A program made the translations under genes and the position numbers. A stretch of DNA of 64,000 nucleotides from Cellulomonas gilvus ATCC 13127. GTDB lineage: Bacteria > Actinomycetota > Actinomycetes > Actinomycetales > Cellulomonadaceae. Position 1 is the stretch's first letter; each line of letters begins with the position of its first letter. This document shows positions 17,063 to 40,751 of the stretch, in pieces. The notes beneath the pieces are model-generated. The model ran no database searches and was not told where the DNA came from. It saw only the letters and a program-made list of their open reading frames with translations. The stretch is from assembly GCF_000218545.1 (NCBI RefSeq), contig NC_015671.1, positions 124,001 through 188,000 of the forward strand, read 5' to 3'.

Positions 17063-18052
17063 GTGACCGCGACCCAGACCGAGCCGCAGCCGTCCTCGAC
17101 CGCCACCAGCACCGAGCAGAGCCAGGCGCCCGCCGCGCAGCCGTTCCGCGCCTTCGCGGTCACGGTCGCCGCCATCCAGCGCGTGTGCCCGAGCGTGCTG
17201 CGCGTGACGTTCACGGGTGAGGACCTGGACCGGTTCGCCGACAACGGGTTCGACCAGCGCATCAAGTTCTTCCTGCCGCTCGAGTGCGGCTACGGCGAGC
17301 TGCTGGACCTCACCGCGAGCGGCGACTGGTACGGCCGTTGGCGGGAGCTGCCCGACGAGCGCCGGCACCCGATCCGCACCTACACCGCCCGCACCGTGCG
17401 CCCGCACGCCCGGGAGCTGGACGTGGACATCGTCCTGCACGGCGACCACGGGCCCGCGTCCCGGTGGGCGCTGCAGGCCCGCCCCGGCTCCGAGCTGGTC
17501 ATCCTGGGCCCGAACGCCGACGCCGTGGGCCCGCACGGCGGCGTCGACTTCGTCCCCCCGCTGCGCACCGACCAGTTCCTGCTGGCCGGCGACGAGACCG
17601 CGCTGCCCGCGATCGCCGCGATCCTCGAGCGCATGCCCGCCGACGCGTGCGGCGAGGCCCTCATCGAGATGCCGCACCCCGAGGACCGCATGGACCTGGG
17701 CGCACCCGCGGGCGTGACCGTCCACTGGCTCGGCCGCGACGGCGCCCCCCACGGCTCCCTCCTGGACCCGGCGGTGCGCGCTGCTGCGGCACGCGTCCTG
17801 CCCCGCGGTGACGGCGGCGAGCTCGTGGACGTTCCCTGGACCCACGCCTCCGACGACGACGTGTGGGAGGTGCCCGTGGACTACAGCACCTACAGCGCGC
17901 TGCGCGAGACCGCGCCCGTCTACGCCTGGCTCGCCGGGGAGTCCGGCGTGATCCGCGGGCTGCGGCGTCACCTGGTCACCGAGCTCGGCATCGACCGCAA
18001 GTCCGTCGCCTTCATGGGCTACTGGCGCCAGGGCCGCTCCGAAGCCAACTGA
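17063..18052 (+). CDS. Siderophore-interacting protein (FAD-dependent ferric reductase)
   Basis: The 329-residue protein has the SIP layout: an FAD-binding barrel with HPIRTYTARTVRP, then ASRWAL and an NAD(P)H domain with DQFLLAGDETALPAIAAILE and a C-terminal VIRGLRRHLVTELGIDRKSVAFMGYWRQG. Such proteins release iron from ferric siderophores by reduction in the cytoplasm. I chose the GTG at 17063, because a TTG at 17042 would lie within the iron box and a -10-like TACAGT stands 6 nt upstream. The last 300 bp of the gene recur at 40453-40751. Confidence 0.9.
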   Translation: MTATQTEPQPSSTATSTEQSQAPAAQPFRAFAVTVAAIQRVCPSVLRVTFTGEDLDRFADNGFDQRIKFFLPLECGYGELLDLTASGDWYGRWRELPDERRHPIRTYTARTVRPHARELDVDIVLHGDHGPASRWALQARPGSELVILGPNADAVGPHGGVDFVPPLRTDQFLLAGDETALPAIAAILERMPADACGEALIEMPHPEDRMDLGAPAGVTVHWLGRDGAPHGSLLDPAVRAAAARVLPRGDGGELVDVPWTHASDDDVWEVPVDYSTYSALRETAPVYAWLAGESGVIRGLRRHLVTELGIDRKSVAFMGYWRQGRSEAN

Positions 18053-18059
18053 ACCGTGT
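17761..18059 (+). repeat. Left copy of 299-bp direct repeat (SIP 3' end)
   Basis: This stretch matches 40453-40751 with about 12 mismatches (about 96% identity). It begins inside SIP codons (LDPAVRAAAARV) and ends 7 bp past the SIP stop. The two copies bracket the accessory region. Confidence 0.95.
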
Positions 18060-18226
18060 TGCTGACGCCCTGTGCGGATGCTCCAAATCGCACCTTGTGA
18101 CAACGCGTGACGAAGTGACCGCCCCACGCTCGGTGGTTGACAGGTGGATCGGCCGAGGTCTCGGTATGTGAGATGTCGCCGATCCGCGTGCCCGCGACGT
18201 CAGTGCGTCACGCGCGTTGGAAGCCG

Positions 18227-18251
18227 CGGGTCCTGCAGCGGCAGGATCCCG
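18227..18251 (-). terminator. Stem-loop downstream of the putative nuclease gene
   Basis: CGGGTCCTGC at 18227-18236 pairs with GCAGGATCCCG at 18241-18251 with one bulged base and a 4-nt loop. It lies 50 bp after the stop of the minus-strand gene. Confidence 0.45.
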
Positions 18252-18301
18252 AGCATGAGGCACGCCGAACCCGAACCATGGCGCGCCGCCGCCGCGGCCA
18301 G

Positions 18302-19618
18302 TCAGCTCAGGTCGCGGGCCAGCCGCTGGATCGGGTGCAGCCCGGCGCCGAACCTGGCGATGGCTTCACGGTTGGCAGCAAGTTCGCCGTACGGCAGGTA
18401 ACGCAGGTGAAGATCGGCAACCGGGCTGAAGGCCGGTCTCCTGAGCTGGGCGCGCACCTCGTGCTCGCGCTCGTCGGGTGCCACCAGGTACAGCCCTGTG
18501 ACCACGCGCCCGTCACCGGACAGTGCGAGGTCGAGCATGCGGACGATGCCCGAGTAGATGGACGTCGTGTGCTCGACCTCGAACGCCGCCACCACCGAGC
18601 CTTCGCCGTCGAGCCACAGCGCGTCGATGAGCCGGATAGCGTCGCCCGCCGGGCCGGCCACGAGGGCATCGGGCAGTGCTGCCAGACACCCGTCGGCCAG
18701 CCGGCCGCCGGCGTAGGGCCGGCTCCGGTCGTTGCTCGCGATCCACACGTCGAACCCCAACGCATGCCCGAGGTCACGCAGCCACCCCTGCACCTCGGTG
18801 TGGGTGGTGTCCTGCCGGGTCGCTGCGGTGAGCGCGGAGTCCTCGCTGAGTGAGCCGACGCGCTGCAGCTGCTCGCGCCACGCGGTCAGCGCTGCGGTGG
18901 CGTCCTGCCCGGGGAGCGGTGGGGCGGTGATGCGGCCAGCGCCGATGTCGAAGAGCAACCCAGCGACCGCCCCGAGGTCGTTGGACAAGAGGTCGCGCAG
19001 CTGCTCGTTGAGCTCGAGGATCCCCGCCCTCATGGCGAGGAAGTCGTCCCAACGTCCGAGCCGGACGCGCGCTCCGGTTAGCGCGTTGTAGCCGCGGACG
19101 ATCGCCGTGTTGAACGGTGGGACGATCGTGGGGTGCAGGAAGTACAGCAGGTTCGCCGCTGCGGGACCCAGGCCGCGGATTCCCCGGCCTGCGAAGGCAC
19201 CGATCGCGGCTAGGACCTGCGCCTCGGTGGTGCAGCATCGGCAGGTCTCGAGGAGGCGACCGAAGGCGAGCTGGTTGTCACGGTCCTCGTAGATGTCGGG
19301 GATGCGGAGCTTCGGCTTCCAGTGGAACGGATGATCGGCCCCCTTGAACAGCTGCCGCTGCTCCGCGATGCCGCGAACGACCGTCTCGAGTGACGACTCC
19401 TTGTAGGAGTTCCCGAACGTGCCCGCCTCGATGTCTGCGCTGACCCGCTCGATGCCGCGGCGGAGCGACCGGAAGTTCTTGACTCGCTCCGGCCACAGGA
19501 ACCAGGTCCGGTAGGTGCTGCCCGGATCCTCTCGCCACGCCGTGACGAGGTCCCGCGTCGCGGCCCAGTCGAGGGACAGTGTCGTAGCGGTCATGGCGGC
19601 GTCACTGGACCGGCTCAT
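18302..19618 (-). CDS. Putative HhH-domain plus PD-(D/E)XK nuclease-like protein
   Basis: I do not know a named family for this 438-residue protein. Its middle part has a helix-hairpin-helix-like block, [24 protein letters not shown], followed by [12 protein letters not shown], which resembles DNA glycosylase-type DNA-binding modules. The C-terminal part has [28 protein letters not shown], which looks like the D...ExE core of PD-(D/E)XK endonucleases seen in some restriction proteins. The ATG at 19618 stands 7 nt after a GATAAT hexamer, so the mRNA is probably leaderless. No methylase is nearby. It sits alone at the left end of the accessory region, which fits a defence or mobile function, but that is inference. 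Confidence 0.55.
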
Positions 19619-19704
19619 GCCGGCCATTATCCGAGTGCAGGCGATCCTCAGAAGGGGACCAACGAACTGAGTCGGCGGACGGCGGTCGGGCTCCGTGTTC
19701 CGCC

Positions 19705-19890: not shown

Positions 19891-20597
19891 TCGGCACCGG
19901 ACGCTTGACCCCGACCCACTTCCGGACGAAGTCCGAAATGGCCCCGAACGGGCAGACGGCGACGAGGACACACCGTGACGGCATCTGTCCAGCGCGAGAG
20001 CCCGATGCCCGAGTTGAGAGCCCTGGGCCGTGTCGGCGACTTCGCGTCTTTCCAGCGTTCAGCCGAGACGGCGGCGCCCGGCACGTCGTGATGCTGGACA
20101 TAGACCTGCTGGCCAATGGTCAGGACGTGCCAGCTTCTTTCATCGCCTCGACAGCGCTCTTGTACTCCCAGTGCCACGGTTCGTAGTAGCCCGAACCGCC
20201 CTTGCGGGCCCACTCAGGGTTCTCCCACCCGAAGGTGGCGGCATTCGCCCACAGCCAGTCGCCACGTTCTCCCGCATAGGTTTCACTGCAGAAGTCGACG
20301 GCCAAGCCCCAACCGTGGTTCGACAGCCCTGCAGGAGCCGCGATTCCGCCCTTCTTTCTGCGGAGCGCAGCCTGTTCCTCGTACGAGCGGTACCCGGACG
20401 ACAGGCACATGGGCTCGCCGAACCGTGCGACATAGAGGGCGTTCAGGGAGAACAGCGACTCGGCCGCGTCAGCTCTGTCTCGGTACGGCCGCTGCCACAG
20501 GTCACACAGCTCAGAATCGGGCACCCGTCCGTTCGTGCGGGTCTGCCGCACGAGTAGGTGACACCCACGTGTGGTGCCGGGAGGCGCCGCTGGAAGG

Positions 20598-20909
20598 ATG
20601 TGCACCGTGCCCAGGCCCTATCCCAAGGAGTTCCGCGAGGACGTCGTGGCCGTGGCTCGCCGCGGGGACGCTCCGATCAAGCAGATCGCGGCGGACTTCG
20701 GCATCGCCGAGTCGTGTCTGCGGAACTGGCTGCGTGATGCCGACGTCGCGGACGGCAACCGCCCCGGGGTGACTCGGACCGAGTCGGCCGAGCTGCGAGA
20801 GGCGAACCGGCGTATCCGTCTGCTGGAGCAGGAGAACGAGGTCCTGCGCCGCGCGGCCGCGTATCTGTCCCAGGCGCATCTGCCGGGAAAAGGCTCTACC
20901 CGCTCGTGA
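20598..20909 (+). CDS. IS3-family transposase OrfA (helix-turn-helix part), copy 1
   Basis: The 103-residue protein starts MCTVPRPYPKEFREDVVAVARRGDAPIKQIAADFGI, an IS3-type HTH, followed by a leucine-zipper-like segment RIRLLEQENEVLRRAAAYL. It ends just past a GGGAAAAGG stretch at about 20888. A -1 slip there would fuse it to OrfB as LPGK-RLYPLVSEL, the usual way IS3 elements make the full transposase. The ATG at 20598 has a GAAGG site; an upstream ATG at 20571 is less likely. Confidence 0.9.
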   Translation: MCTVPRPYPKEFREDVVAVARRGDAPIKQIAADFGIAESCLRNWLRDADVADGNRPGVTRTESAELREANRRIRLLEQENEVLRRAAAYLSQAHLPGKGSTRS

Positions 20910-21766
20910 GTGAGCTCGCCGCCGACGGGGTGCCCGTCGCGGTGACGTGCCGGGTTCTTAAGCTCGCAAGGCAGCCCTACTACCGGTGGCTCGCTGAGCC
21001 CGTCGGCGCGCGGGAGGTCGCCCGGGCGCACCTCGCTAACGCGTTGTTCGACGCCCACCGTGACGACCCGGAGTTCGGGCACCGGCTCCTGGCCGACGAG
21101 GCCGCCCGCGCCGGACTGATCGCCTGCGACCGCACGGTCTGGCGGATCTGTCGGGACAACCAGTGGTGGTCGGTGTTCGGCAAGAAGCGCTCGAAGAACG
21201 GGAAGAAGGCCGCTCCGCCGGCCCATGAGGACCTCGTGCTGCGGGTGTTCACCGCCGATGCGCCGAACAGGTTGTGGCTCTGGGACATCACCGAGCACCC
21301 GACCGCCGAGGGCAAGGTCTACCTCTGCGCGATCAAGGACGTGTTCTCCAACCGGATCGTCGGATACTCGATCAGCGACCGCATGACGTCCCAGATCGCA
21401 GTAGACGCTCTGGTCAGCGCGGTGCAGCGGCGCGGGGATGTCGCCGGCTGCGTGGTCCACAGCGATCGTGGCAGCCAGTTCCGAAGCAGGAAGGTGGCCC
21501 GTGTCCTGGCCCGCCACGACCTCGCTGGGTCGATGGGGCAGGTCGCCTCCGCCGGGGACAACGCCGCTATGGAGAGCTTCTTCTCGCTGCTGCAGAAGAA
21601 CGTCCTGGACCGCCGCCGCTGGGCCACCCGTGACGAGCTGCGCCTGGCGATCATCACCTGGATCGAACGGACCTACCACCGCCGCAGACGCCAGGTCCGC
21701 CTCGGCCGCCTGACCCCCATCGAGTACGAGACGATCATGACCACTCAGGTCGCACTCGCCGCCTGA
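20906..21766 (+). CDS. IS3-family transposase OrfB (DDE catalytic part), copy 1
   Basis: The 286-residue integrase-like protein holds the DDE triad: D in LWLWDITEH, D in VVHSDRGSQF and E in NAAMESFFSLLQKNVLD, 35 residues after the second D. It lies in the -1 frame relative to OrfA and overlaps it by 4 nt, so it is probably expressed as an OrfAB fusion by frameshifting. All catalytic residues are present and the frame is open, so the element may be active. Confidence 0.93.
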   Translation: MSELAADGVPVAVTCRVLKLARQPYYRWLAEPVGAREVARAHLANALFDAHRDDPEFGHRLLADEAARAGLIACDRTVWRICRDNQWWSVFGKKRSKNGKKAAPPAHEDLVLRVFTADAPNRLWLWDITEHPTAEGKVYLCAIKDVFSNRIVGYSISDRMTSQIAVDALVSAVQRRGDVAGCVVHSDRGSQFRSRKVARVLARHDLAGSMGQVASAGDNAAMESFFSLLQKNVLDRRRWATRDELRLAIITWIERTYHRRRRQVRLGRLTPIEYETIMTTQVALAA

Positions 21767-22472
21767 GTTTCGCTGTCACCTACTCGTGCAGCAGACCCTG
21801 CCGGGGTTCGTGACGACTCCGTCGCAGTCGGGCGTGGCGTCTGCCTGGCTCTCTAGCCGACTTGCCGACCGCGACGCCTGTTCTTGTCGAACCACCCGTT
21901 CAGCGGCACCTGGCGCGACCAGTGATGGTGGAGGGGTCAGGTCAGTCGCCGTGGCAGTCAGCGCCTCGACGGTCGACGGGCCAGCGTCCGCCGTCGAAGC
22001 GGGTGTGGATGCGGGACTCCGGTCAACGAGCGCGAACGCGGTCGTCGCGAGGACCATCGCGATTAGCGTTGTGATCCGAACGGGCCACACACGGAGTCGG
22101 TAGCGGGCGCTGTTGCCCGAAGCATTCCGGCGGACTCGACGGCCAGTTTGTCGGCGCGGCGGAGATACCTCTGCGGCGTGACGTCCCATGTTCTCTCTCC
22201 GGTGAGCGCCCGCGGCGCGGTGGCGCGACCAAGTGGCGATGGCGGCTCGGTACCCGGTCAGTCCCTTCTGCTCGAGCCGCGCGTCAGCTCATGTCGTGCT
22301 TGACGGCGCGTGGGATCGATGCGCTGGTGAACACACCGCAGCCTCCGGACGCGGTGAGGAGTCCGGCGGCCTGCCGTCAGCCTGACGTAGCGACGATCAA
22401 CGTCTGACGCCGGAACAATGAAGGCTCGCTTGACTTCGGGCGCCTGGCGGCGGGGCTGCTCGGTACCGCGTC

Positions 22473-23578: not shown

Positions 23579-26374
23579 TCAGTGCGTGGTAGCTGGGTGC
23601 CCGTACCGGTGAGGGTCGGCGTCGAAGGCGGCGGCGCAGCCGGGGCTGCAGAAGTAGAACGTGACGCCGTCGTGCTCCCTCGTGGCAGCCGCACTGCTCG
23701 GGTCGACGCTCATGCCACAGACCGGGTCGATCGACGCCGAGGACGAGTGCTGGTGGTGCTGGTGGTGGGACATGGTGTTCTCCGCTTCTTCGTGGTCGTG
23801 TCCGAGCTCGACCACCGGTTCGGTGGTCCGTACGAGGGGAGCCACCGACGTCGTCGAGGCCGTGGGGGTGAAGCGACGCAGCCGGTTGGCGTTGGCGACC
23901 ACCGACAGCGACGACAGCGCCATCGCGAGGGCCGCGAGCATCGGGCTGAGCAACAGCCCGAACGCGGGGTACAGCACGCCGGCGGCGATCGGGATGCCGA
24001 TCGCGTTGTACCCGAACGCGAAGACGAGGTTCTGGCGGATGTTGCGCATCGTCGCCCGCGACAGGTCGATCGCGGTCACCAGGCCGCCGAGGTTCCCCGA
24101 GATCAAAGTGATGTCGGAGGACTCGATGGCGACGTCTGTGCCGGTGCCGATCGCCGAACCTACGTCTGCCTGTGCCAGGGCGGGTGCGTCGTTGATGCCG
24201 TCGCCGACCATTCCGACGACCCGGCCCTCGGCCTGCAGTCGTCTGACCTCGCGGGCCTTGTGCTCCGGCATCACTTCCGCGACAACTCTGGCGATTCCGA
24301 CCTGCCGGGCGATCGAGCGGGCAGTCTCGCGGTTGTCGCCGGTCATCATGACGACGTCGATGCCGCGGGCCGTCAGGTCTGCGACGGCGGCGGCAGATCC
24401 GTCCTTGAGCGTGTCAGCCACGCCGATCACGCCCGCGGCTCGGCCGTTGACGGCGACGAGCATCGGTGTCTTGCCGTCCGCGGCCAGCCGGTCCAGGTCC
24501 CCAGTGAGCTGCGCGGGGTCGGCACCGTGTTCCGTGAGCAGCCGCACGTTGCCGACCACGACCTGCGTTCCTTCGACGCGCGCCAGCACGCCCTGGCCGG
24601 TGACCGACTCGAACGCCGATGCGGTCGGCACCTGCAGGCCGCGTTCTGTCGCGCCGGTGACGATCGCGAGGGCGAGTGGGTGCTCCGAGTCGCGTTCGGC
24701 CGCGGCGACCAGCGTCAGCAGCTCGTCGGCGACGAACCCGGGAGCGGGCAGCACGTCGGTGAGGGCCGGCCGGCCCTGCGTGATCGTGCCGGTCTTGTCC
24801 AGCACGACGGTGTCGAGCCGATGTGCGGTCTCGAGCGCCTCCGCTGAGCGGATCAGGACGCCCGCGGTCGCGCCCTTCCCGGTTCCGACTGTGATCGACA
24901 GCGGGGTCGCCAGGCCCAAGGCGCACGGGCACGCGATGATCAGGACGGAAACTGCGGCCACCAGGGCATACACACCTGCGGGCGGCGGGCCGACGAGCCA
25001 CCAGACGACGAACGTCCATACCGCGATCGCGATCACGGCCGGCACGAAGTAGCTGGACACCTTGTCCGCGAGTCTCTGGATAGGCGCCTTGGAGCCCTGA
25101 GCCTCGCGGACGAGGGCGATGATCTGGGCGAGCATCGTGTCCGCGCCGACCTTGGTCGCGGCGTAGCGGAACGAGCCGGTCTGGTTGATCGTCGCGCCGA
25201 TGACCGTGTCGCCGAGCCGCTTGACGACGGGGATCGGCTCGCCGGTGACCATCGACTCGTCCACGAGGGACGCGCCCGCGATCACCTGTCCGTCGACCGG
25301 GAGCTTCTCGCCTGGTCGGATCACTACGGTGTCGCCGACGACGACCGTGTCCACATCGACGTCGACCTCAGTCCCGCCACGCACGACGCGAGCTGTTCGT
25401 GGCTGCAGGCCGATCAGGGCTCGGATCGCCTCACCGGTGCCGGCCTTGGCCTTCGTCTCGAGCAACCGTCCCAGGAGGATCAGGGTCAGGATGACGCCGA
25501 CGGCCTCGTAGTACACCTCGCGGTGGTCGGCGGGCAGCAGACCGGGTGCGACGGTGGCGACGAGACTGAACCCGAATGCGGCGAGCGTCCCGAGTGTGAT
25601 CAGCGAGTTCATCTCAGCGGTTCGGTGCGACAGCGCCAGCCAGCCGGTGCGATGGATCGGCCAGCCCGTGTAGACCATCACGGGTGTGATGAGCAGCAGC
25701 TGGAACCAGGGTTCCAGCAGCAGCGCCGGTACCCAGGTGGCGGCGAGCAGCGTCTCGGCCATCACTGCGACGAGCACCGGGAGTGTGAGGACGGCGCCGA
25801 CGATCACCCTGCGGCGCAGGTCGACGATCTCGGCGGAGCGTTCTGCGGCCTCCACGTCGGCTGCCGCGCCTGCGGCTTGTGTGGCGGGCGCCGCAGGTCT
25901 TGAGGCTCCAGGGCTCCTGTCGTTGCGGTGGGAGTCGTGGATCCGCGAGGACGTCGACGTACCGCCGTCGGCGTCCTGGTCGCCTGCGAGTGAGCCGCGT
26001 CCACGTGCAGACGGGACGACCTTGAGCGTGCCGTGCAGCATGTTCATCCCGCAGGCGAACCCGAACTCCCCGGCCTGCCGCGGGGTGAAGTCCACGGCTG
26101 TGGTCGCGTATGCCGGCAGGGTCTGGTTCACCTTGAAGTCGGGGAACACCACGCGCGAGGAGCAGTCGCCGGCCTCTTGGCGGTCGAAGAGCAGCCGCAC
26201 GGGCATGCCTTGTTCTACCTCGATGACGTTCGGGCTGTACCCGCCCTTGACTGCGACGGTGAGCACCTGCACGCCGTTCTCGACGCCGGCGCGAGCCGAT
26301 GCGCGAGGTCCGAAGAAGTACCAGCCCAGTGCCGCCGTCAGTGTGACCGCGACTGCTACGACCAAAGCGTCCAT
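23579..26374 (-). CDS. copA: Copper P1B-type ATPase with N-terminal cupredoxin and C-terminal YHS domains
   Basis: This 931-residue protein is a three-part fusion. Residues 1-22 form a membrane anchor, and about 35-120 a cupredoxin-like domain with possible copper ligands C71, C108, M110, M112 and H114 ([10 protein letters not shown]). From about 170 to 840 runs a complete P1B ATPase with TGEP, the CPC ion motif (C482, C484), the phosphorylated D526 in DKTGT, SEHPLA and [11 protein letters not shown] His/Ser linker ([10 protein letters not shown]) leads to a YHS domain with DPVCGM and FCSPGC. The usual CxxC HMA domain is absent. It should pump Cu(I) out of the cytoplasm. The ATG at 26374 has GGAGG before it. 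Confidence 0.93.
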
Positions 26375-26486: not shown

Positions 26487-26544
26487 TCCGACGACCGACG
26501 GGCGCCCCCGGGGATCGTGCCGGGCATCCGTCAGCCGGAAGGCG

Positions 26545-31888: not shown

Positions 31889-32604
31889 TCGCCGGACCCC
31901 ATGCGGTACCCGACACCGCGCACGGTGCGCACGAACCGTTGCTGGCTCGCCGTGTCACCGAGCTTGCGACGAACGTGCAGAAGGTGGACGTCCACCAGGT
32001 GCTCATCGCCCACATACCCGTCGCCCCACACCGCCGTGATGAGCGCCCGGCGGCTGAACACCCGCTGCGGGGCGGCGGCCAACGCGGACAGCAGGTCGAA
32101 CTCGGTGCGGGTCAACGGGACCGGCTCGCCGTCGAGGCGCACCTCGCGAGCGTCAGGGCTGATGCTCAACGCCCCCACAGTCATCACGGTGGCTGGAGCG
32201 GCGGCTGCCTCGGTATGCAGGCCTCGAGGCCGTCGCAGCAGCGCTGCGATGCGCGCGACAAGCTCGCGGGGCCGGAACGGCTTGGTCACGTAGTCGTCGG
32301 CACCGACCGACAGCCCGATCAATGTGTCGACCTCGTCGGCGCGCGCGGTCAGCATGACCACGTACGCGTCGGAGAACGTGCGCACCTGCCGGCACACCTC
32401 GACCCCGTCCAGACCCGGCAGCCCGAGGTCGAGAACGATCACGTGGGGGTCGCGTTCCTGCGCCAGGCGCACGCCGGTGGGTCCGTCGAACGCGAGGTCG
32501 ACCTCGAATCCCTCACGCTCCAGGTAACCCGCGACGAGGCGTGCCAGCGCCTCCTCGTCGTCGACGACAAGGGCGCGCCGTTGCGGCGTGGTGACGGTGT
32601 TCAT
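31885..32604 (-). CDS. OmpR/PhoB-type response regulator
   Basis: The 239-residue protein has a receiver domain (about 10-125) with acidic D15-D16, the phospho-acceptor D59 in VIVLDLGLPG and K in DDYVTKPFRP, then a winged-helix DNA-binding domain ending RKLGDTASQQRFVRTVRGVGYRMG. It pairs with the kinase downstream. I chose the ATG at 32604 (MNTVTTPQRRALVVDD); an ATG at 32670 would add 22 unlike residues. It is divergent from the thioredoxin-like operon and may control it. Confidence 0.92.
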   Translation of the reverse strand: MNTVTTPQRRALVVDDEEALARLVAGYLEREGFEVDLAFDGPTGVRLAQERDPHVIVLDLGLPGLDGVEVCRQVRTFSDAYVVMLTARADEVDTLIGLSVGADDYVTKPFRPRELVARIAALLRRPRGLHTEAAAAPATVMTVGALSISPDAREVRLDGEPVPLTRTEFDLLSALAAAPQRVFSRRALITAVWGDGYVGDEHLVDVHLLHVRRKLGDTASQQRFVRTVRGVGYRMGSGE

Positions 32605-32786
32605 GGCGCCAGTGTCTCCGCACACGGCCCGTCCGGACAGCGCGATCGCGCAGGCCGCACCGGTCTTCATCGTTTCTTGAGCGAACCGATACCGGCAGCC
32701 CAGGGGACCGTGCCGAAGATCGTGATGTCAGTTCGGCGCGGGCACGTCCGTGCGCACGCGCCGCAGAAGATGTTCGGAGGTCCCTC

Positions 32787-33101
32787 GTGCAAGCAACATC
32801 CTCGGGCACGGTCGTCATCACCGTCGTGCCCACTCCAGCGTGCCACTTCTGTGAGGACGCCGAGCAGGCACTGACGGCCCTGGCGGACACGTTCGACTTC
32901 GAGCTGGACCTGGTGCCCTTCGACAGCGCCCACGGGGCGCGTCTCATCGCCGAGCATCGCCCGGCACTCAACCCGCTCGTCCTGGTCGACGGCGCCTTCT
33001 TCAGCGCCGGACGGCTCCCACGCAAGAAGCTCATCAAGCTCCTGACCACGCGAGGCGCAGGTCGGTTCGCGGCCACGGAGGCGGGGGCTCGACGTGGGTA
33101 G
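32787..33101 (+). CDS. Thioredoxin/glutaredoxin-fold protein with CHFC motif
   Basis: The 104-residue protein has one glutaredoxin-like domain. The active site is PACHFCEDA, and the cis-Pro loop appears as LNPLVLVDGAFF. It should handle disulfides or deliver a metal in the cytoplasm. The GTG at 32787 follows GGAGG. Its end overlaps the CcdA-like gene by 8 nt, and it opens an operon that runs on to 35769. Confidence 0.82.
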   Translation: MQATSSGTVVITVVPTPACHFCEDAEQALTALADTFDFELDLVPFDSAHGARLIAEHRPALNPLVLVDGAFFSAGRLPRKKLIKLLTTRGAGRFAATEAGARRG

Positions 33102-34113
33102 CGAACTGCTGACCACCGGGAGCGTCATCGCGGCGTTCCTCGCCGGCGGCGTCGCCCTGTTCGCGCCGTGCTGCATCGTCTTCCTCGCCCCGAGCTACCT
33201 TGCGGCAGCGGTGAAGAGCCGACGCTGGCGGCTGCTGCCGTTGACGTTCGTCTTCGCTGCGGGCCTTGCACTGGTCATGCTTCCGCTGACCCTGGGGGCC
33301 AGCGTCCTCGCCGGAGCGATCGCGAAGTACCACCAGCCGCTGTACATCGCGGGTGGGCTGCTGATGATCGCGCTGGGCGTGTTTGCACTCTCGGGACGGA
33401 TGTGGTCGCTGCCCTCGTTCGTGCGCGCCCCGGACACCGCCCGCGCGGACACTGGGAGCTTCTTCGCGCTCGGGGTGTTCTCCGGCATCGCCTCCGCCTG
33501 TTGCGCGCCCGTTCTCGTCGGCGTGATGACCCTGTCGGCCCTGTCGGCCAACCCCGCAGGTGGGTTCGTCCTCGGTGTCGCCTATGTGTTCGGGATGGTG
33601 TTCCCGCTGTTCGTCATGGCCCTGCTGTGGGACAAGGCGCGGCTCAACGAGCGCCAGTTCCTGCGCGCACGACCGGTGCGGCTCCGCGTCGCCGGGCGCG
33701 TGATCGCCACGAACACCGTCAATCTGGTCGTAGCCGTGGGCTTCTTCGCCATGGGCATCGCGATCATCGGCCTGGCGAACCAGTCGGACATGTCCCGAGG
33801 CACCGCAGCACAGTCCTGGGCCTCCGAGCGCCTGACCGACGCCTTCCTTCGCATCCAGGACTGGGCGGCCCCCGTGCCGGAGGTCGTCCAGGCGCTGCTG
33901 CTCTTCCTCGTCGTCGGCGGGCTGGTCGCGGCCACCCTGACCGGACGGCGCCGCGGGGTCGTCGCCGTTCCCCCTGACGTCGACGACCCCGCACCGCGCC
34001 CCGACGCTCGACTCGCAGAAGCTCAACCCGAAGCCGTCGAGGGGCACCCGTCCCACACCGACGCCGACGCCACCCCGTCGTGCCACCAGCACCCGGCAGC
34101 AAGGACCCACTGA
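33094..34113 (+). CDS. CcdA/DsbD-like membrane thiol-disulfide transporter
   Basis: The 339-residue protein has about six to seven membrane helices, with the pair of cysteine-containing motifs expected for the CcdA family: FAPCCIVFLAPSYLA in the first and ASACCAPVLVGVM in the fourth. CcdA-type proteins move reducing power from cytoplasmic thioredoxin to extracytoplasmic partners. The double CC at each site is unusual. The C-terminal tail is Asp/Pro/His-rich (SCHQHPAARTH). It overlaps both neighbours and likely feeds the TlpA-like protein. Confidence 0.85.
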   Translation: MGSELLTTGSVIAAFLAGGVALFAPCCIVFLAPSYLAAAVKSRRWRLLPLTFVFAAGLALVMLPLTLGASVLAGAIAKYHQPLYIAGGLLMIALGVFALSGRMWSLPSFVRAPDTARADTGSFFALGVFSGIASACCAPVLVGVMTLSALSANPAGGFVLGVAYVFGMVFPLFVMALLWDKARLNERQFLRARPVRLRVAGRVIATNTVNLVVAVGFFAMGIAIIGLANQSDMSRGTAAQSWASERLTDAFLRIQDWAAPVPEVVQALLLFLVVGGLVAATLTGRRRGVVAVPPDVDDPAPRPDARLAEAQPEAVEGHPSHTDADATPSCHQHPAARTH

Positions 34114-34739
34114 TGACCTCCGGATCGGCCACACAGCGCGCCAAGGAACGCCAGGAAGCGCTCGAGAGCGTCCGTGCGGACCAACACGCACAGCAGCAGC
34201 GCCGCCGCCTCCTGATTGGGGGCGCGTGGGGCGCGGTCGCCCTACTCGTCGTCGGACTGATCGCCGCGGCCCTGTGGTCCGCGCGACCGCAGACGTCCGA
34301 CGCCACGCGAGTCGCCCCCGACTTCACGCTGTCCGACTCCGAGGGCGGATCCGTGACCCTGTCCGACCTGCGCGGCGCGCCCGTCCTGCTCTACTTCAAC
34401 GAGGGCGCCGGCTGCGACGCCTGCATCCAGCAGCAGACCCAGATCGAGGCCGAGCCCGGCTTCGAGCAGGCCGGCATCACCGTCCTGCCGATCGTGATGA
34501 ACACCGCCGAGCAGATCAACGCCGACCGCGAACGCCTCGGCGCCACGACCCCGTTCCTGCTCGACGACGGCACCGTCTCCGAGGAGTACGGCACCCTCGG
34601 TACGGGCATGCACGAAGGCCTTCCCGGCCACGGCTTCGTGCTCATCGACGCCGACGGCAACCAGGTCTGGCAGGGCGACTACCCCTCCATGTGGATCGAA
34701 CCCTCCGAGCTGCTCGACATCGTGAAGAACGAGCTCTGA
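34113..34739 (+). CDS. Membrane-anchored TlpA/peroxiredoxin-like thiol protein
   Basis: The 208-residue protein has a short cytoplasmic N-terminus, one helix (LLIGGAWGAVALLVVGLIAAALW) and an AhpC/TSA-Redoxin domain outside the membrane. The domain has APDFTLSDSEGGSVTLSDLRG and an active site GCDACIQQQTQ. It should be the external acceptor of electrons from the CcdA-like protein. The start at 34113 overlaps the CcdA-like stop (TGATG), so they are coupled. Confidence 0.85.
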   Translation: MTSGSATQRAKERQEALESVRADQHAQQQRRRLLIGGAWGAVALLVVGLIAAALWSARPQTSDATRVAPDFTLSDSEGGSVTLSDLRGAPVLLYFNEGAGCDACIQQQTQIEAEPGFEQAGITVLPIVMNTAEQINADRERLGATTPFLLDDGTVSEEYGTLGTGMHEGLPGHGFVLIDADGNQVWQGDYPSMWIEPSELLDIVKNEL

Positions 34740-34761
34740 CACCCCCGAAGGAGCACCAACC

Positions 34762-34932
34762 ATGTCTGACACCTGCTGCCGAAGCACCGGCATCGCCGAC
34801 CCTGCGCCGGAGACCGAGCACCACTGCGCCTGCAACCGGGACGTGGCGGACAGCGGCCACGGCGAGTCACGCCACCTGACCCTCGCCGCACCAGCGGGCG
34901 CCGACCCTGACGACGGACCCATCAGCGCCTGA
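34762..34932 (+). CDS. Small Cys/His-rich protein (56 aa)
   Basis: This short gene lies between the TlpA-like and Lgt-like genes and has a good ribosome site (AAGGAG, 8 nt before ATG). The product begins MSDTCCRSTG and contains HHCACN, with five clustered cysteine and histidine ligands in the first half and no hydrophobic segment. The composition suggests a cytoplasmic metal-binding peptide of the operon. I do not recognise a family. The reading frame is supported by its tight fit between the stop at 34739 and the next ribosome site. Confidence 0.65.
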   Translation: MSDTCCRSTGIADPAPETEHHCACNRDVADSGHGESRHLTLAAPAGADPDDGPISA

Positions 34933-34968
34933 CCCCACGCGGGCAGGACGCCGGAAGGGAAGACTTCC

Positions 34969-35769
34969 ATGCAACCCGTGCTGTTCTCAGTCTTCGGCTT
35001 CGACGTGCAGTCCTACGGCGTCAGCAAGGCAGCGGCCGCACTGCTCGCCGCCTACCTGCTCGGCCGCGCGTTCCAGCGTCACGGCCTGAGGAAGGAGGAC
35101 GCCCACTCCCTCGTCATGTGGGCGACGATCTGGGGCTTCGTCGCAGCCAAGGTGTACTTCCTGCTCGAACACGCCGATCAGTTCACCTGGCACCACCTCG
35201 GGGGCTCAGGGTTCACCTGGTACGGCGGGCTGATCGGCGGCGTCGTCACGTTCCTCGTGATGATCCGGCGCCGCCGGCTCCCGGCCCAGCTCGTCGTCGG
35301 CGCCGCAGCGATCCCGCTCACGCTGGCGTACGGCGTCGGCCGCCTCGGCTGCTGGCTGTCGGGTGACGGCACCTACGGCAAGCCCACCGACCTGCCCTGG
35401 GGGCAGTCGTTCCCTGACGGGATGGTCGCCACTGACGTATCGGTGCACCCCACGCCGCTCTACGAGGCGCTCGCCGCTGTACTCATCGCAGCCGCGCTGT
35501 GGGCGTTGCAGCGACGGGCATGGCGGCCGCTCCAGGTGTTCGGTGCCTACCTGATCCTTTCGGGGCTGTCGCGGTTCCTTGTGGAGTACCTCCGGATCAA
35601 CGAGCCTGCGCTGCTCGGCCTCACCCAACCGCAGCTGTGGGCCATCGCCAGTGTGGCTGCCGGCGGGGTGCTCCTCTGGCGCGACGGTGTGCGTGCCCGG
35701 CGCACCGAACAACTCCGGGCGAGCTCCGACGAGAGTCGGGTCTCGGCTCACACCTTCATCAAAGCTTGA
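34969..35769 (+). CDS. Lgt-family protein (prolipoprotein diacylglyceryl transferase-like)
   Basis: The 266-residue protein has about seven membrane helices. Lgt features are visible: SYGV near the N-terminus, the HxGGxxxxGG-like stretch HHLGGSGFTWYGGLIGG, the conserved arginine in YGVGRLGCWLSGDG and HPTPLYEAL. True Lgt attaches diacylglycerol to the lipobox cysteine of lipoproteins. As part of a thiol/metal operon this is probably an accessory paralogue, not the housekeeping enzyme; a DUF305 lipoprotein follows at once and could be a client. Confidence 0.8.
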   Translation: MQPVLFSVFGFDVQSYGVSKAAAALLAAYLLGRAFQRHGLRKEDAHSLVMWATIWGFVAAKVYFLLEHADQFTWHHLGGSGFTWYGGLIGGVVTFLVMIRRRRLPAQLVVGAAAIPLTLAYGVGRLGCWLSGDGTYGKPTDLPWGQSFPDGMVATDVSVHPTPLYEALAAVLIAAALWALQRRAWRPLQVFGAYLILSGLSRFLVEYLRINEPALLGLTQPQLWAIASVAAGGVLLWRDGVRARRTEQLRASSDESRVSAHTFIKA

Positions 35770-35871
35770 TCGTTTCGCAGCCGTTTTCCGCATTTGGGAG
35801 CAGCAGCGTAGGACCAAGGTCCCAAGGTGATTGAGCCTGCGACCACCCGACTGACCATTGAGGAGAACCAA

Positions 35872-36474
35872 GTGCGCCGACGAGTCACCGTCGCCATCAT
35901 CGCTTCGACAACCGCCGCGGGACTGCTTCTGGCCGGCTGCTCGAGTACCGCCACACCAGCAGACCCAGCCGCCACGGCTTCCGAGACGGTCGCAGCGCCG
36001 TTCAACGACTCCGACGTCACGTTCGCCCAGATGATGGTCGTCCACCACGAGGGCGCCATCGAGATGGCCGACCTCGCCGTCGAACGAGGCACGAACCCCG
36101 AGGTCCAGGCGCTCGGCAAGGCGATCTCGGCAGCGCAGGGACCCGAGATCGAGCAGATGACGAGCTGGCTCGAGAGCTGGGGTGAGCCGACGGCCGACGA
36201 CATGATGGACATGGACGGCATGGACCATGGGGGCATGGACATGGACGGGATGGATCAGGCCGGCGCGATGGCGGACCTCGACTCGCTGTCCGGCACCGAG
36301 TTCGACCGCCGCTTCCTCGAGCTGATGACCGCACACCACCAGGGCGCAATCGAGATGTCCGAGCAGGAGCTGGCCGACGGCGAGAACGCCGACGCGCTCG
36401 CGCTCGCCCGTCGGATCATCGATGCCCAGAACGCCGAGATCGTGGAGATGACGAACATGCTCGGCGGGCTCTGA
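35872..36474 (+). CDS. DUF305 lipoprotein with Met/Asp/His-rich linker
   Basis: The 200-residue protein has a lipobox LLLAGC with C23 as the anchor. It contains two DUF305 halves, FAQMMVVHHEGAIEMADLA and LELMTAHHQGAIEMSEQEL, each with an HHxGAIEM ferritin-like helix motif. Between them lies a stretch of Met, Asp and Gly (DDMMDMDGMDHGGMDMDGMD) that suits copper binding. It should sit on the outer face of the membrane and bind or buffer Cu. The GTG at 35872 follows GAGGAG. A strong terminator follows the gene. Confidence 0.88.
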   Translation: MRRRVTVAIIASTTAAGLLLAGCSSTATPADPAATASETVAAPFNDSDVTFAQMMVVHHEGAIEMADLAVERGTNPEVQALGKAISAAQGPEIEQMTSWLESWGEPTADDMMDMDGMDHGGMDMDGMDQAGAMADLDSLSGTEFDRRFLELMTAHHQGAIEMSEQELADGENADALALARRIIDAQNAEIVEMTNMLGGL

Positions 36475-36490
36475 TCTTCCTCCCGGGCGG

Positions 36491-36519
36491 GCGCCGGACC
36501 CTCAACGAGGGTCCGGCGC
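36491..36519 (+). terminator. Terminator after the DUF305 gene
   Basis: GCGCCGGACCCTC at 36491-36503 pairs perfectly with 36507-36519 around a 3-nt loop, a 13-bp stem starting 17 bp after the stop. It is the clearest intrinsic terminator in the copper block. Confidence 0.8.
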
Positions 36520-36635
36520 TTCGCCGCGAAGCTACCCTCATCGGACCTTCATGATTCCTGAGCCGAGACTCAATGAACTCTCGGGACAGTGGTCGCGCGC
36601 GCTGGAGAGCCCGGCGCCTTGATCGGAGGTACGTC

Positions 36636-37310
36636 GTGGTCGCCACCGCTCCTGAGGTCTCACGCGGCACGGAAGGTCCCGGAACGCCCAGCGGCCGAGC
36701 GGGCCTCAGGCTCGCCGCCGTCATCGCCGTCAGCGTGGCGATCGGGATCGTCGCACTCCTGCTGCCTGCCTGGCCGGCCGGCGAGGACATGGGGTCGACG
36801 CACTACATGGGCCTGCTCGCCGCGAACCAGCCGTGGAACCTGCTGATCTTCATGGCGATCCCGGTCATCTGCGCCGAGACGGTCGCGGTCACCGAGCTCG
36901 TCATCCTGTTCAGCCCGCAGCGTGCCGGCCGGACCGTGAGGGCGTTGAACCGCTACGTCGGCCTGTTCGCCGGGTTCTACTTCCTCGGGATCTTCGTCTA
37001 CCTGCTCGACAACGCGGTCGTCCCGCTCACCCAGTCCGGGGGCTGGCGTGGCCCGGCCGACGTTATCGCCGTCGGGTTCTACCTGCTTGGTGTCGTGCCG
37101 CTCTACGGGATGAGCCTTCTCGAGACGCGCGTGCTGGGCGCCGGGTGGGACGAGCAGCACCGCCTGAAGATCCACGCCACCTTCGTGGGCATCTTCCTCG
37201 TGGTCGCTCACATCGCGATGATCGCGGGCATGCTCGACCCGACCGTCGCCGGCTGGGACCCCACCCACGAGATGGACGACGGGTCGCAGATGGAGGGCAT
37301 GACCCACTGA
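36636..37310 (+). CDS. Multi-helix membrane protein with Met/His tail, copper block
   Basis: The 224-residue protein has about five membrane helices and the features THYMGLLAANQPWNLLIFMAIPVICAETVAVTELVILF and DEQHRLKIHATFVGIFLVVAHIAMIAGML. The tail MDDGSQMEGMTH is Met- and His-rich. Similar proteins are found near copper-resistance genes in actinobacteria (DUF6803-like, from memory). Function is unknown. I chose the GTG at 36636, behind GGAGGT; an upstream ATG at 36573 would add a basic, low-complexity stretch. Confidence 0.65.
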   Translation: MVATAPEVSRGTEGPGTPSGRAGLRLAAVIAVSVAIGIVALLLPAWPAGEDMGSTHYMGLLAANQPWNLLIFMAIPVICAETVAVTELVILFSPQRAGRTVRALNRYVGLFAGFYFLGIFVYLLDNAVVPLTQSGGWRGPADVIAVGFYLLGVVPLYGMSLLETRVLGAGWDEQHRLKIHATFVGIFLVVAHIAMIAGMLDPTVAGWDPTHEMDDGSQMEGMTH

Positions 37311-37448: not shown

Positions 37449-37898
37449 ATGGCCCTGCCTGCGTCGTGCCACGACCAGTCCCTCGGAGCGACCCGGTCGC
37501 CCGGGGAGCGTGGTCGTCCTGCGTCACGCCGGGTTCCCGGTCTGACCGTGTGCGGGACCTGCGCGGGCGAGTCGCTCGGTGGTCCCGACGACGGCGCGCG
37601 CGACGAGCAGATGCGCGTGCTGCGTGACCTCGCCGGCGAGCTCGGCGTCGCGCTGACCGTCGTCGATTGCCTTGACGCGTGCGAGCGCGGCGACGTTGTC
37701 GTCGTGCGGCCGTCGGCGGCGGGCCGAGCGATCGGCGCGGCGCCGGTCTGGCTTCAGCGGATGGCGGGGCCCAGCGCGATGGGGGAGCTCCGTGACTGGC
37801 TCGCCGCCGGCGGTCCTGGAGTGGCTGCCGAACCCTCTGGGCTTGAGCGGCACCGCCTCGTCGACCCCGACGCGCGGGTCTGCTGCACGGATAGGTGA
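37449..37898 (+). CDS. (2Fe-2S) ferredoxin-like (DUF1636-type) protein, 3' end replaced by IS
   Basis: The 149-residue product has a thioredoxin-like ferredoxin fold signature: VCGTCAGESLG near residue 36 and TVVDCLDACERGDVVVVRP about 45 residues later, giving four cysteines in the order expected for a 2Fe-2S site. Its last residues, RVCCTDR, and its stop codon lie within the left inverted repeat of the second IS3 element, so the native C-terminus is lost. The iron-sulfur site is N-terminal to this, so the product may still fold. The start at 37449 follows GGAG; a CsoR-like operator precedes it. Confidence 0.65.
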   Translation: MALPASCHDQSLGATRSPGERGRPASRRVPGLTVCGTCAGESLGGPDDGARDEQMRVLRDLAGELGVALTVVDCLDACERGDVVVVRPSAAGRAIGAAPVWLQRMAGPSAMGELRDWLAAGGPGVAAEPSGLERHRLVDPDARVCCTDR

Positions 37899-37907
37899 CA
37901 GTTCGTC

Positions 37908-38783
37908 TCAGGCGGCGAGTGCGACCTGAGTGGTCATGATGGTCTCGAACTCGACTGGTGTCATCCGACCGAGGCGGGCTTGCCTGCGGCGGCGGTGGTA
38001 GGTCCGTTCGATCCAGGTGATGATCGCCAGGCGCAGATCCTCGCGGGTGGCCCAGCGGCGCCGGTCCAGGACGTTCTTCTGCAGCAGGGAGAAGAAGCTC
38101 TCCATGGCGGCGTTGTCCCCGGCCGAGGCGACCTGGCCCATGGACCCGAGCAGGCCGTGACGGTGCAGCTCGCGCAACACCTTCCTGCTTCGAAACTGGC
38201 TGCCTCGGTCCGGATGGACCACGCACCCGGCCACGTCACCGCGGCGTTGCACGGCGCTGAACAGGGCGTTTACCGCGATCCGGGACGTCATTCGGTCGCT
38301 GATCGAGTACCCGACGATGCGGTTGGAGTGCACGTCCTTGATCGCGCACAGGTACAGCTTGCCCTCGCCCGTGGGGTGTTCGGTGATGTCCCAGAGCCAC
38401 AACCGGTTCGGGCCATCCGCGCGGAAGATCCGCAGCACGCGGTCGTCGTGCGCTGGCGGGCCGGCCTTCTTGCCGTTCTTGGCGCGCTTCTTGCCGAACA
38501 CCGACCACCACCGGTTGTCCCGGCAGATCCGCCACACGGTGCGGTCGCAGGCGACCTGCCCGGCGCGGGCCGCCTCGTCGGCCAGCAGCCGGTGCCCGAA
38601 CTCCGGGCCGTCGCGGTGGGCGTCGAACAGGACGTTGGCCAGATACGCCTCCTCGAGGTCGTGCCTGGTCACGGGTGCAGCGAGCCAGCGGTAGTAGGGC
38701 TGTCTGGCGAGCTTCAGGACCCGGCACGTCACCGCGACGGGGACCCCGTCGGCGGCGAGCTCACTCACGAGCGGGTAGGTCAT
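37908..38783 (-). CDS. IS3-family transposase OrfB, copy 2
   Basis: The 291-residue protein starts MTYPLVSELAADGVPVAV and has the full DDE set: D in LWLWDITEH, D in VVHPDRGSQF and E in NAAMESFFSLLQ. Compared with copy 1 it differs for example in VTRHDLEEAYLANVLF. Its ATG at 38783 overlaps the OrfA TGA as ATGA at a GGGAAAATGA stretch, so it could be made by coupling as well as by a -1 slip. Confidence 0.92.
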   Translation of the reverse strand: MTYPLVSELAADGVPVAVTCRVLKLARQPYYRWLAAPVTRHDLEEAYLANVLFDAHRDGPEFGHRLLADEAARAGQVACDRTVWRICRDNRWWSVFGKKRAKNGKKAGPPAHDDRVLRIFRADGPNRLWLWDITEHPTGEGKLYLCAIKDVHSNRIVGYSISDRMTSRIAVNALFSAVQRRGDVAGCVVHPDRGSQFRSRKVLRELHRHGLLGSMGQVASAGDNAAMESFFSLLQKNVLDRRRWATREDLRLAIITWIERTYHRRRRQARLGRMTPVEFETIMTTQVALAA

Positions 38784-39076
38784 TTTCCCGGCAGATGCGC
38801 CTGAGCGAAGTACGCAGCGGCTCGGCGAAGGACCTCGTTCTCCTGCTCCAGGAGCCGCACACGCTTCTTGGCCTCGCGCAGCTCGGCCGATTCCGAGGCC
38901 GTCACGCCGGGCCGGTCGCCGTCCTCGACGTCGGCGGCATGCATCCAGTTGCGCAGGCACGAGTCGCTGATGCCGAAGTCCTTGGCGATCTGAGACACAG
39001 GGGCATCACCGCGACGGGCGATGGCCACGACGTCGTCGCGGAACTCCTTGGGGTGGGGTCTGGGCACGGTGCACAT
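38780..39076 (-). CDS. IS3-family transposase OrfA, copy 2
   Basis: The 98-residue protein starts MCTVPRPHPKEFRDDVVAIARRGDAPVSQIAKDFGI and has the zipper-like RVRLLEQENEVLRRAAAYF. It ends AQAHLPGK right at the run of four A residues used for frameshifting. It aligns along its length with OrfA of copy 1 with clear substitutions. Confidence 0.9.
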   Translation of the reverse strand: MCTVPRPHPKEFRDDVVAIARRGDAPVSQIAKDFGISDSCLRNWMHAADVEDGDRPGVTASESAELREAKKRVRLLEQENEVLRRAAAYFAQAHLPGK

Positions 39077-39135
39077 CCTTCCAGCGGTGCCCCAGGCGCC
39101 ACAGGTCAGGTGTCACCTATCCGTGCAGCAGACCC

Positions 39136-39600
39136 GAGCGTACGAAATCTCATCTCCGCAGACCCTCGGCACCGTGTGACGGGGGAGGCCTCCCGTGCGT
39201 ACCGTCGTCGCGGTACTGGCCGATGCCTCAGAGCGAACCCGGTCACGAACCCCTGAACAGGCCGCTCGCCCCACGGGGTCGTTTTCCGGGCCTGGAGCCA
39301 GGACTGACGCGGCTCAGCCAGGAAAGTGCTCGGCGCAGCTCAGCTTGCTCGTCGCGCGCCGGTAGCGTCCCGACCATGCTCTCCGCACGACGTCATGGTG
39401 GCCACGACGAAGAGGGCGACCGGCCACGCGACACAGGAATGCCAAGCAGGCGTGAACCCGCGTGGTGGTCCGCGTGGCGACGAAGGGCGGGTACGAGGAA
39501 TGCTGCTGACCCCGGCCGTGCAGGGCTCCCGGCAGCTGATCCGAAACGGGCCGACGAGCTACGAGACGGATCTTCCCCGAGTGCCGTCGACGTCAAGCGC
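39136..39600. other. Gap of 465 bp without a supported gene
   Basis: Open frames exist here, but the translated sequence is low-complexity and unlike a folded protein. The region lies between the second IS3 copy and an orphan gene and is probably scar DNA. The stretch near 39256 (CCCTGAACAGG) recurs near 42261 before the second lipoprotein copy. Confidence 0.4.
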
Positions 39601-39978
39601 GTGCTCGGGGTCCTCTCGCCGCCGCCATCGGCTTACACCGAGAGCGCCATCTTTCTCCACCCTGGCGGGGGCGCCGAGCTGCGGACCATCTACGAGCGGA
39701 GCGGCTCGATGTATTCGGGTGGTCTTCGGTTCGATGGCGTGCGCGCGTACAGGTTTCGTGCCGAGGGCCACTGCACTGCTTGGCATAGTGAAGACGCGTA
39801 CAACACCCTCGTCGAGGTTGAGCATTCGGCTTGGATCGCTGAGCTCCTGGCCGCCCAGGCGAGCGAGTGGCGGGGTCGATGGAAGATTCGACACTTCCTG
39901 ATCTACGTCGATGACTCAGGTGCCTTCGAGGTCGCTGCTGAGGGTTATGAGTGGCTTCCGGAGGAAGGTGCGTCGTGA
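39601..39978 (+). CDS. Orphan protein, possibly immunity-like
   Basis: I do not recognise this gene. The frame is open from well upstream, but the protein-like part begins near 39586-39601 and encodes about 125 residues with YTESAIFLHPGG, DGVRAYRFRAEGHC, WIAELLAAQASEWRG and HFLIYVDDSGAFEVAAEGYEWL. The alternating hydrophobic pattern and length resemble small immunity proteins of polymorphic toxin systems, and barstar- and DUF6896-like genes lie nearby. The GTG start at 39601 is a guess; the gene may be a 3' fragment. Confidence 0.4.
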   Translation: MLGVLSPPPSAYTESAIFLHPGGGAELRTIYERSGSMYSGGLRFDGVRAYRFRAEGHCTAWHSEDAYNTLVEVEHSAWIAELLAAQASEWRGRWKIRHFLIYVDDSGAFEVAAEGYEWLPEEGAS

Positions 39979-40143
39979 CCTTTGCCGGGGTGCGGTCCAG
40001 GCGTGGGGCATCCGGGGAGTAGCGTGCCCGCCACGGCTCGCGAACTGCGGTCGGCGACCGGGGGGTTTCGGGAGTGTGGTCGCACCTGTTCGGGGGCGTG
40101 TCGATCCGTGCCATGTCGCGGTCCGTCCTGGCGGAAGGTCCGG

Positions 40144-40503
40144 GTGGAGTCGACGCCCACGGTCTCCTCGCCGACAGGTCGCAGGGCTCGGGGTCTGGCG
40201 TTGCTCCTGATGTGCGCTGTCGTCGCGGGTGCGTGCGCGGGTCCTGAGCGGGACGTCCGGGAGGGACTGCCGGCGGAGTGGCGGGACAGCGTCAGACCTG
40301 CGGAGCCGATGGCGCTCCGACTCGAGCGCGATGGGACCGCCTGGCTCGAGAACGTCCCGCTGTGGGACGGGTCGGGCAGCTGTGAGGGCGCCGGCCCCGT
40401 GCGCTACACCGGGACCGCGACCTGGACGTGGGAGCGCGGGTTCCTCCTCGACCCTGGACCCCGCGGTGCGCGCTGCTGCGGCACGCGTCCTGCCCCGCGG
40501 TGA
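40144..40503 (+). pseudogene. Lipoprotein gene fused out of frame to the SIP tail
   Basis: The first 103 codons encode a lipoprotein N-terminus (LALLLMCAVVAGAC as signal and lipobox) followed by PERDVREGLPAEWRDSV and TGTATWTWERGFLLD. At 40453 the sequence switches to the SIP tail in another frame and stops at 40503. The second copy at 42242-42783 shows what is missing: about 55 C-terminal residues. The GTG at 40144 is the likely start. The family is unknown to me. Confidence 0.75.
40177..40440 (+). repeat. Left copy of lipoprotein-gene duplication
   Basis: This segment matches 42341-42603 (offset 2164 bp). The first 85 bp or so, over the signal peptide, are identical; later parts carry scattered differences and a 1-bp deletion in the right copy near 42535. 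Confidence 0.8.
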
Positions 40504-40744
40504 CGGCGGCGAGCTCGTGGACGTCCCCTGGACCCACGCCTCCGACGACGACGTGTGGGAGGTGCCCGTGGACTACAGCACCTACAGCGCGCTGCGGGAC
40601 AACGCACCCGTCTACGCGTGGCTCGCGGGTGAGTCCGGCGTGATCCGCGGGCTGCGGCGCCACCTGGTCACCGAGCTCGGCATCGACCGCAAGTCCGTCG
40701 CCTTCATGGGCTACTGGCGTCAGGGCCGCTCCGAAGCCAACTGA
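40453..40744 (+). pseudogene. 3' fragment of a siderophore-interacting protein gene
   Basis: In one frame this encodes LDPAVRAAAARVLPRGD through MGYWRQGRSEAN and a stop, the last 97 codons of a SIP gene. It has no start, no FAD-binding part and no fitting upstream frame. It differs from the intact gene at 17063-18052 mainly at RDNAPVY instead of RETAPVY and at silent sites. Confidence 0.93.
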
Positions 40745-40751
40745 CCCGTGT
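40453..40751 (+). repeat. Right copy of 299-bp direct repeat (SIP 3' end)
   Basis: Partner of 17761-18059, same orientation, offset 22,692 bp, about 12 mismatches. Homology starts and stops sharply at both ends. The 308 bp that follow (40752-41059) hold no gene I can support. Confidence 0.95.

Follow-up and report, generated by a model that had tools for sequence, protein, structure and literature searches.

In Cellulomonas gilvus ATCC 13127, the gene for a siderophore-interacting protein (SIP) is followed by 22.7 kb of DNA that carries a copper block and ends at a second copy of the 3' end of the same gene. How did such a stretch come to lie between two copies of one gene tail? We addressed this question in a window of 64,000 nucleotides, positions 124001-188000 of the single-contig C. 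gilvus genome (G000; 3,526,441 bases), within which all coordinates below are counted. The closest relatives found were Cellulomonas genomes, and the genus-wide searches covered 81 of these, G000 included. By little more than an even chance, we favour the reading that the stretch is a relative's allele of a hot spot behind SIP, which was joined at its ends and entered by homologous recombination in SIP.

Two repeat pairs and one abrupt join

The intact SIP gene occupies 17063..18052 on the plus strand and has FAD_binding_9 and SIP domains (Pfam E 3e-38 and 1e-34). Searching the window against itself revealed a direct repeat of 299 bp, ungapped and with 12 mismatches (96%, E = 1e-137), between 17761-18059 (tail A) and 40453-40751 (tail B), both on the plus strand. 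The SIP stop codon is at 18052, so the repeat comprises the last 292 bp of SIP and 7 bp beyond it. An original prediction, made from the sequence alone, had claimed a 299-bp SIP-tail repeat in the same orientation with about 12 mismatches, and the self-search bears this out to the exact coordinates. In the alignment, tail B is open through to its stop codon, and neither a premature stop nor a frameshift has arisen in it. Of the 12 differences between the tails, one lies beyond the stop codon and 11 are in coding sequence; ten of these 11 fall at the third base of a codon and the remaining one at the second. Under random placement, at least 10 of 11 differences would fall at third positions with P = 1.3e-4. 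Given this bias, the divergence of both tails seems to have taken place while each belonged to a working gene. Two residues differ between the tails, and the bases of tail B at those codons are seen in 10/19 and 14/19 other Cellulomonas SIP genes. Polarisation by eye, in which some assignments were ambiguous, placed about five changes on A and about six on B (5/6 of the latter at third positions, P = 0.018). For most of the time since the two separated, tail B was apparently part of a working SIP gene, and the tails seem to be two alleles rather than a gene and its ageing pseudogene. The earlier suggestion that their divergence pointed to a tail from a related genome is supported by the placement of the coding differences.

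A second direct repeat, overlooked in the original prediction, pairs 40146-40452 with 42310-42615 at ~90% identity and adjoins tail B exactly. The repeated part is the front of a lipoprotein-like gene (lipo), named from its leader-like start. Lipo A (40144..40452, plus strand) is an open frame with no Pfam or PADLOC match. Lipo B (42308..42783, plus strand) is the second copy. Neither looks intact, because A is cut off by tail B at the join and B carries a 1-nt frameshift relative to A and has no start codon at the equivalent position. One relative, G032, has a homologue (44-47% amino acid identity), which lies close to the right-hand end of the same variable region.

The resulting gene order is SIP tail A, X, lipo A, directly followed by SIP tail B, Y, lipo B. 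X is 22 kb long and contains a restriction-enzyme-like gene, two IS3-type elements and the copper block; Y is 1.6 kb long and includes a barstar-family gene. X (18060-40145) and Y (40752-42309) showed no mutual similarity in a blastn self-search (E 1e-8). At 40452/40453, lipo A passes directly into SIP without any shared base, and microhomology there was rejected on the actual bases. A single abrupt join at 40452/40453 would account for both repeat pairs. Their third-position divergences (10/97 for SIP, 16/103 for lipo) are compatible with each other (Fisher P = 0.30).

The sequence behind tail A was also informative. Because the 99 bp of intergenic sequence at 18060..18158 match the sequence behind SIP in C. 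persica (87%), copy A appears to be in a lineage-typical context; among the 81 Cellulomonas genomes, only C. gilvus and C. persica gave a match. A likeness of these 99 bp to the sequence downstream of SIP in strain HZM was faint in the alignment, failed the sequence search and was discarded. Tails A and B have almost the same identity to 19 relatives, a comparison that favours neither as the native tail.

The variable region behind SIP in Cellulomonas

To the left of SIP, the gene order closely matches that of C. persica. On the right, we used a minus-strand gene at 48988..49302 as a yardstick for the variable region; its homologues (41-64% amino acid identity) were compared in the 13 relatives that had both this gene and SIP inside the stretch fetched. 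The distance from SIP to gene 48988 is 30.9 kb in C. gilvus and ranges from 3.2 to 42.6 kb in the relatives: 3.2 kb in Leaf395, 4.0 in C. terrae, 5.5 in G018, 6.4 in G023, 7.1 in both G021 and Root485, 7.3 in G029, 7.7 in G024, 8.2 in Root930, 11.9 in G005, 22.0 in G032, 31.1 in C. persica and 42.6 in C. gelida. A block of ~925 bp behind SIP is common to eight genomes and starts anywhere from 0.02 to 4.5 kb after the SIP stop codon. The GMC oxidoreductase gene (46265) is also near SIP in G011, G006 and G020 and, inverted, in C. biazotea. With its conserved flanks and variable content, the DNA behind SIP constitutes a gene-turnover hot spot. The right edge at 40751 given by the original prediction was not borne out: moving rightwards, genes 46265 (in four relatives) and 48988 (in 13) are the first for which a counterpart near SIP was found. 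The analysis also corrects the boundaries of the copper region. The gene at 47988-48938 is downstream of SIP in C. gilvus and G024, and upstream of a VIT gene in C. persica and C. gelida, a placement that looks like local reshuffling around SIP.

Parts of the copper block occur in many relatives, largely away from SIP. In C. gelida, the genes for the kinase, regulator, CcdA-like protein, AhpC, DUF305 and DUF6803 lie ~12-17 kb behind SIP in the same order, are 69-81% identical to those of C. gilvus and accompany a single SIP tail. A copper block with one SIP tail had been named at the outset as an observation that would count against a replacement-tail element; C. gelida provides it in part, since the P-type ATPase is absent from that contig and the identity is 69-81%. 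The presence of the C. gelida block beside a single tail shows that block and repeat are not tied to each other, and the copper block moves independently.

A displaced SIP tail was also found in C. uda (L141/L231), where a SIP fragment lies 424-607 bp after the SIP stop codon in the same orientation. In this relic, 159 bp at 91% identity to the genome's own SIP precede the final 26 bp of the gene, from which the stop codon has been lost; DNA common to G032 starts 67 bp past the relic. Its 5' end is equivalent to position 17624, 137 bp further upstream than position 17761 of C. gilvus. The relic is independent of the C. gilvus event, and the different 5' ends in the two cases are evidence against attachment at a fixed site. 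An internal deletion in the relic starts within ~20-30 bp of the SIP position at which tail B begins, which may be a coincidence.

Each SIP was compared with its own downstream sequence at 43 loci, 8/43 of which had less than 9.9 kb downstream and two of which (L171 and L178) are records titled as other genera. At L142, two short weak matches (57 bp at 77% and 44 bp at 84%) were taken as chance. In self-repeat tests on the stretches of seven relatives, all repeats were short and local (70-139 bp), and SIP was not recognised in any of them. When the 3' half of SIP was searched against the 81 genomes, 67 had a long SIP match (E up to 2.8e-60) among the matches listed, and a second SIP match close by was present among them in G000 and G099 only; this search scored few candidates per genome, ranked by E-value, and relics may escape it.

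Origin of the 22.7-kb stretch

Under the reading that we favour, a sister lineage would have held SIP, the copper block and lipo at the same spot. A donor piece reaching from inside its SIP to inside its lipo would have entered the C. gilvus lineage, and the two ends of this piece would have been joined so that lipo met the SIP tail, the simplest form being an end-joined circle. Integration by one homologous crossover in the 3' end of SIP would leave an intact (possibly hybrid) SIP, the incoming 22.7 kb, the lipo/SIP join, the resident SIP tail, the barstar gene and lipo B. The same order would also result if homologous exchange took place at one end only and the other end was joined illegitimately. 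What we infer is the donor, circle and crossover, the identity of the incoming unit, and the derivation of both sides of the join from one molecule. A Ku gene was present in 5/5 genomes searched, C. gilvus included, and could serve end joining.

The insert is flanked by a partial direct duplication of its anchor gene (299 bp, 96%), as single-crossover entry of end-joined DNA requires. An Escherichia coli study (PMC3240628) describes linear DNA with one homologous end, for which the authors infer closing up and a single crossover in most cases: a diagnostic PCR detected a duplicated gene end in 56/60 clones, and in the 14 clones sequenced the duplication measured 109-950 bp. In this lacZ system, as in C. 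gilvus, a partial duplication of a gene end bounds the insert, and 299 bp is within the reported range. In contrast, the E. coli DNA was a laboratory plasmid, whereas the C. gilvus insert is 22.7 kb long, its copies are diverged and the event was unobserved. A related system is homology-facilitated illegitimate recombination (HFIR) in Vibrio cholerae (PMC5361080), which is likewise proposed to combine one homologous anchor with one illegitimate end and has orphan immunity-type genes accumulating downstream. The anchor there is an effector gene, unlike the SIP gene here, and HFIR is described as generally deleting recipient DNA, whereas C. gilvus shows a duplication. The locus also resembles the hot spots maintained through recombination at flanking core genes that are described by Oliveira et al. 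2017 (PMC5635113), who report that 45% of turnover hot spots encode an integrase: the flanks are conserved, the content is very variable and no integrase was found. It differs in that part of the flanking gene is present twice after the C. gilvus event, and in that our comparison is between species rather than strains.

The process is of a known kind; the scar is unusually legible and has one independent parallel, in C. uda. Bacterial chromosomes have many integrase-free variable regions, and statistics are the usual basis for inferring how DNA entered them. Where a locus has preserved the join together with the gene tails of both alleles, one event can be reconstructed, and with the C. uda relic in view a systematic search for such scars seems feasible. 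We also put forward, as a tentative and rather doubtful extension, that the 3' end of SIP may be a recurrent integrase-free landing pad in Cellulomonas, where DNA would enter by homology, leave an intact SIP in front and push the old tail rightwards. The displaced tails of C. gilvus and C. uda would then be a fossil record of successive arrivals.

Several points weigh against entry of a relative's end-joined allele. A clear relic was present at only one of the 43 loci tested, L141 of C. uda. No empty site, donor strain or circle was found among the genomes compared, the nearest of which has ~83% identity over the 3' half of SIP; none of the other Cellulomonas genomes among the 81 exceeds this value. 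The sequence from 40752 onwards has no convincing match in the stretches downstream of SIP in the compared relatives, leaving its residency unsupported, and the lineage-typical downstream sequence belongs to copy A, not copy B. The evidence for constraint on the own branch of tail B consists of about six changes polarised by eye. Finally, the overall divergence of the two repeat pairs differs (11/292 for SIP against 33/308 for lipo, P = 0.0015), and the third-position bias of the lipo pair is weak (8/9/16 over the three codon positions). A higher overall divergence of lipo would be expected if this gene were less constrained than SIP.

The main rival is a tandem duplication within this genome, from the SIP tail to lipo, with one interior replaced by the insertion sequences (IS) and the copper block. 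Such a duplication would leave the observed repeated order and an abrupt join, and would make an outside donor unnecessary. However, the two interiors share nothing detectable, and tail B should have drifted as a pseudogene, yet 10/11 of its coding differences are at third positions and its frame has remained open. We regard this explanation as improbable.

Still less probable is a site-specific element that integrated at the 3' end of SIP with a replacement tail and later lost its integrase, which is close to what the original prediction had proposed. Integration of the e14/icd type replaces the tail of a gene. The intact gene on the left and the second tail on the right in the same orientation resemble that type, and C. 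uda also has a displaced SIP tail. However, nine genomes (C. gilvus and eight relatives) were searched for the Phage_integrase and Resolvase families, and neither the window nor the DNA that separates SIP from the right flank in the relatives gave a match; the closest one lies ~60 kb from SIP, in G032. The earlier observation that no integrase is visible stands; an integrase gene may have been lost, or an unmodelled recombinase may have acted. Among the 30 window open reading frames (ORFs) scanned with Pfam, the only recombinase matches were the IS3-type transposase domains of element B, and no tRNA that could serve as an attachment gene was found in the window. The repeat starts within the gene without a long identical core, with a mismatch already at the tenth base; a 9-bp or internal attachment core may nevertheless exist. 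The C. uda relic extends 137 bp further upstream, so that the two Cellulomonas cases share no fixed position, and the truncated lipo gene at the join is left unexplained. Given the missing integrase match, the tenth-base mismatch, the C. uda relic and the truncated lipo gene, the proposed replacement-tail element is unsupported.

A shade less credible again is a series of unrelated insertions and deletions in which the lipo and SIP repeats would have separate histories. Orphan immunity-type genes appear to make up a patchwork at 39.2-42.8 kb, and the overall divergence of the two pairs differs, both as this explanation would have it; against it, one junction explains both pairs, and their third-position divergence fits one age. 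Least credible of all is a composite transposon in which the IS3 pair brought the copper block and the SIP-tail repeat is incidental: two related, inverted IS bracket the block, but it was rejected on their divergence (only 84% alike) and on their flanks (a 3-bp duplication on both sides of element A alone and none at B, with unmatched outer flanks), and it leaves tail B unexplained.

Contents of the stretch and neighbouring genes

The original prediction had listed two IS3 elements, a nuclease and a copper block between the tails, all of which were confirmed by Pfam, PADLOC and sequence likeness. Of the 30 ORFs in the Pfam scans, 25 are located at 18.3-43.9 kb; both ORFs of element A were outside the scanned set. 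The gene at 18302..19627 (minus strand) encodes a type II restriction-endonuclease-like protein (PADLOC REase_II, E 4e-11; no match in Pfam or NCBIfam) that is 73% identical in amino acids to a protein of the Rhodococcus plasmid pRWAY03. The pRWAY03 homologue is near copper genes (CopC and a CopY-type regulator). Relatives of the gene were found by tblastn on 178 plasmid records, 65 of them from Enterococcus. No methyltransferase domain was found in the neighbouring ORFs scanned. A plasmid origin of the whole segment was rejected: 130 plasmid records match parts of it, none covers at least 80% of 18060-40452 and the first listed covers 18%.

IS3-type element A (20539..21798, plus strand) has terminal inverted repeats matching at 24/25 positions and a flanking 3-bp duplication; its assignment comes from its similarity to B and to genes on plasmids that carry the annotation IS3 family transposase. 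Element B (37876..39135, minus strand), identified with Pfam, has inverted repeats matching at 25/25 positions and no target duplication, and is in the opposite orientation to A.

The copper block as a whole spans 23579..37310 and was delimited with Pfam, NCBIfam and relatives. On the minus strand it has a Cu P-type ATPase with cupredoxin and YHS domains (23579-26272), a DUF2933 protein (26545-26847) and a sensor kinase with its response regulator (30785-32604). The plus strand carries FtsX/MacB permeases with an ABC ATPase (28035-30762), a CcdA/DsbD-like protein just under the Pfam cut-off (33094-34113), AhpC/TSA (34353-34739), LGT (34969-35769), DUF305/CopM (36031-36474) and DUF6803 (36735-37310). 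The P-type ATPase has its cupredoxin-like domain at the N-terminus and its YHS domain at the C-terminus of one reading frame; the ABC-transporter ATPase (29929-30762) also has a YHS domain at its C-terminus.

Around the join, the 39.2-42.8 kb stretch looks like a string of orphan immunity-type genes. The ORF at 39223-39978 is probably one of these; its conserved part (39533..39978, plus strand) has a homologue in G020 directly downstream of a gene for a 1720-aa RHS-repeat protein. The barstar-family gene at 41009..41641 (plus strand; Pfam E 2.5e-20) has homologues elsewhere in G032, G024 and G001, and the one in G032 is near an RHS-repeat ORF and transposase genes. The two ORFs scanned beside the G024 homologue had no RHS match. 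Further to the right, a 73% direct repeat (53944-54512 and 57771-58339) was observed between the ends of two adjacent large ORFs.

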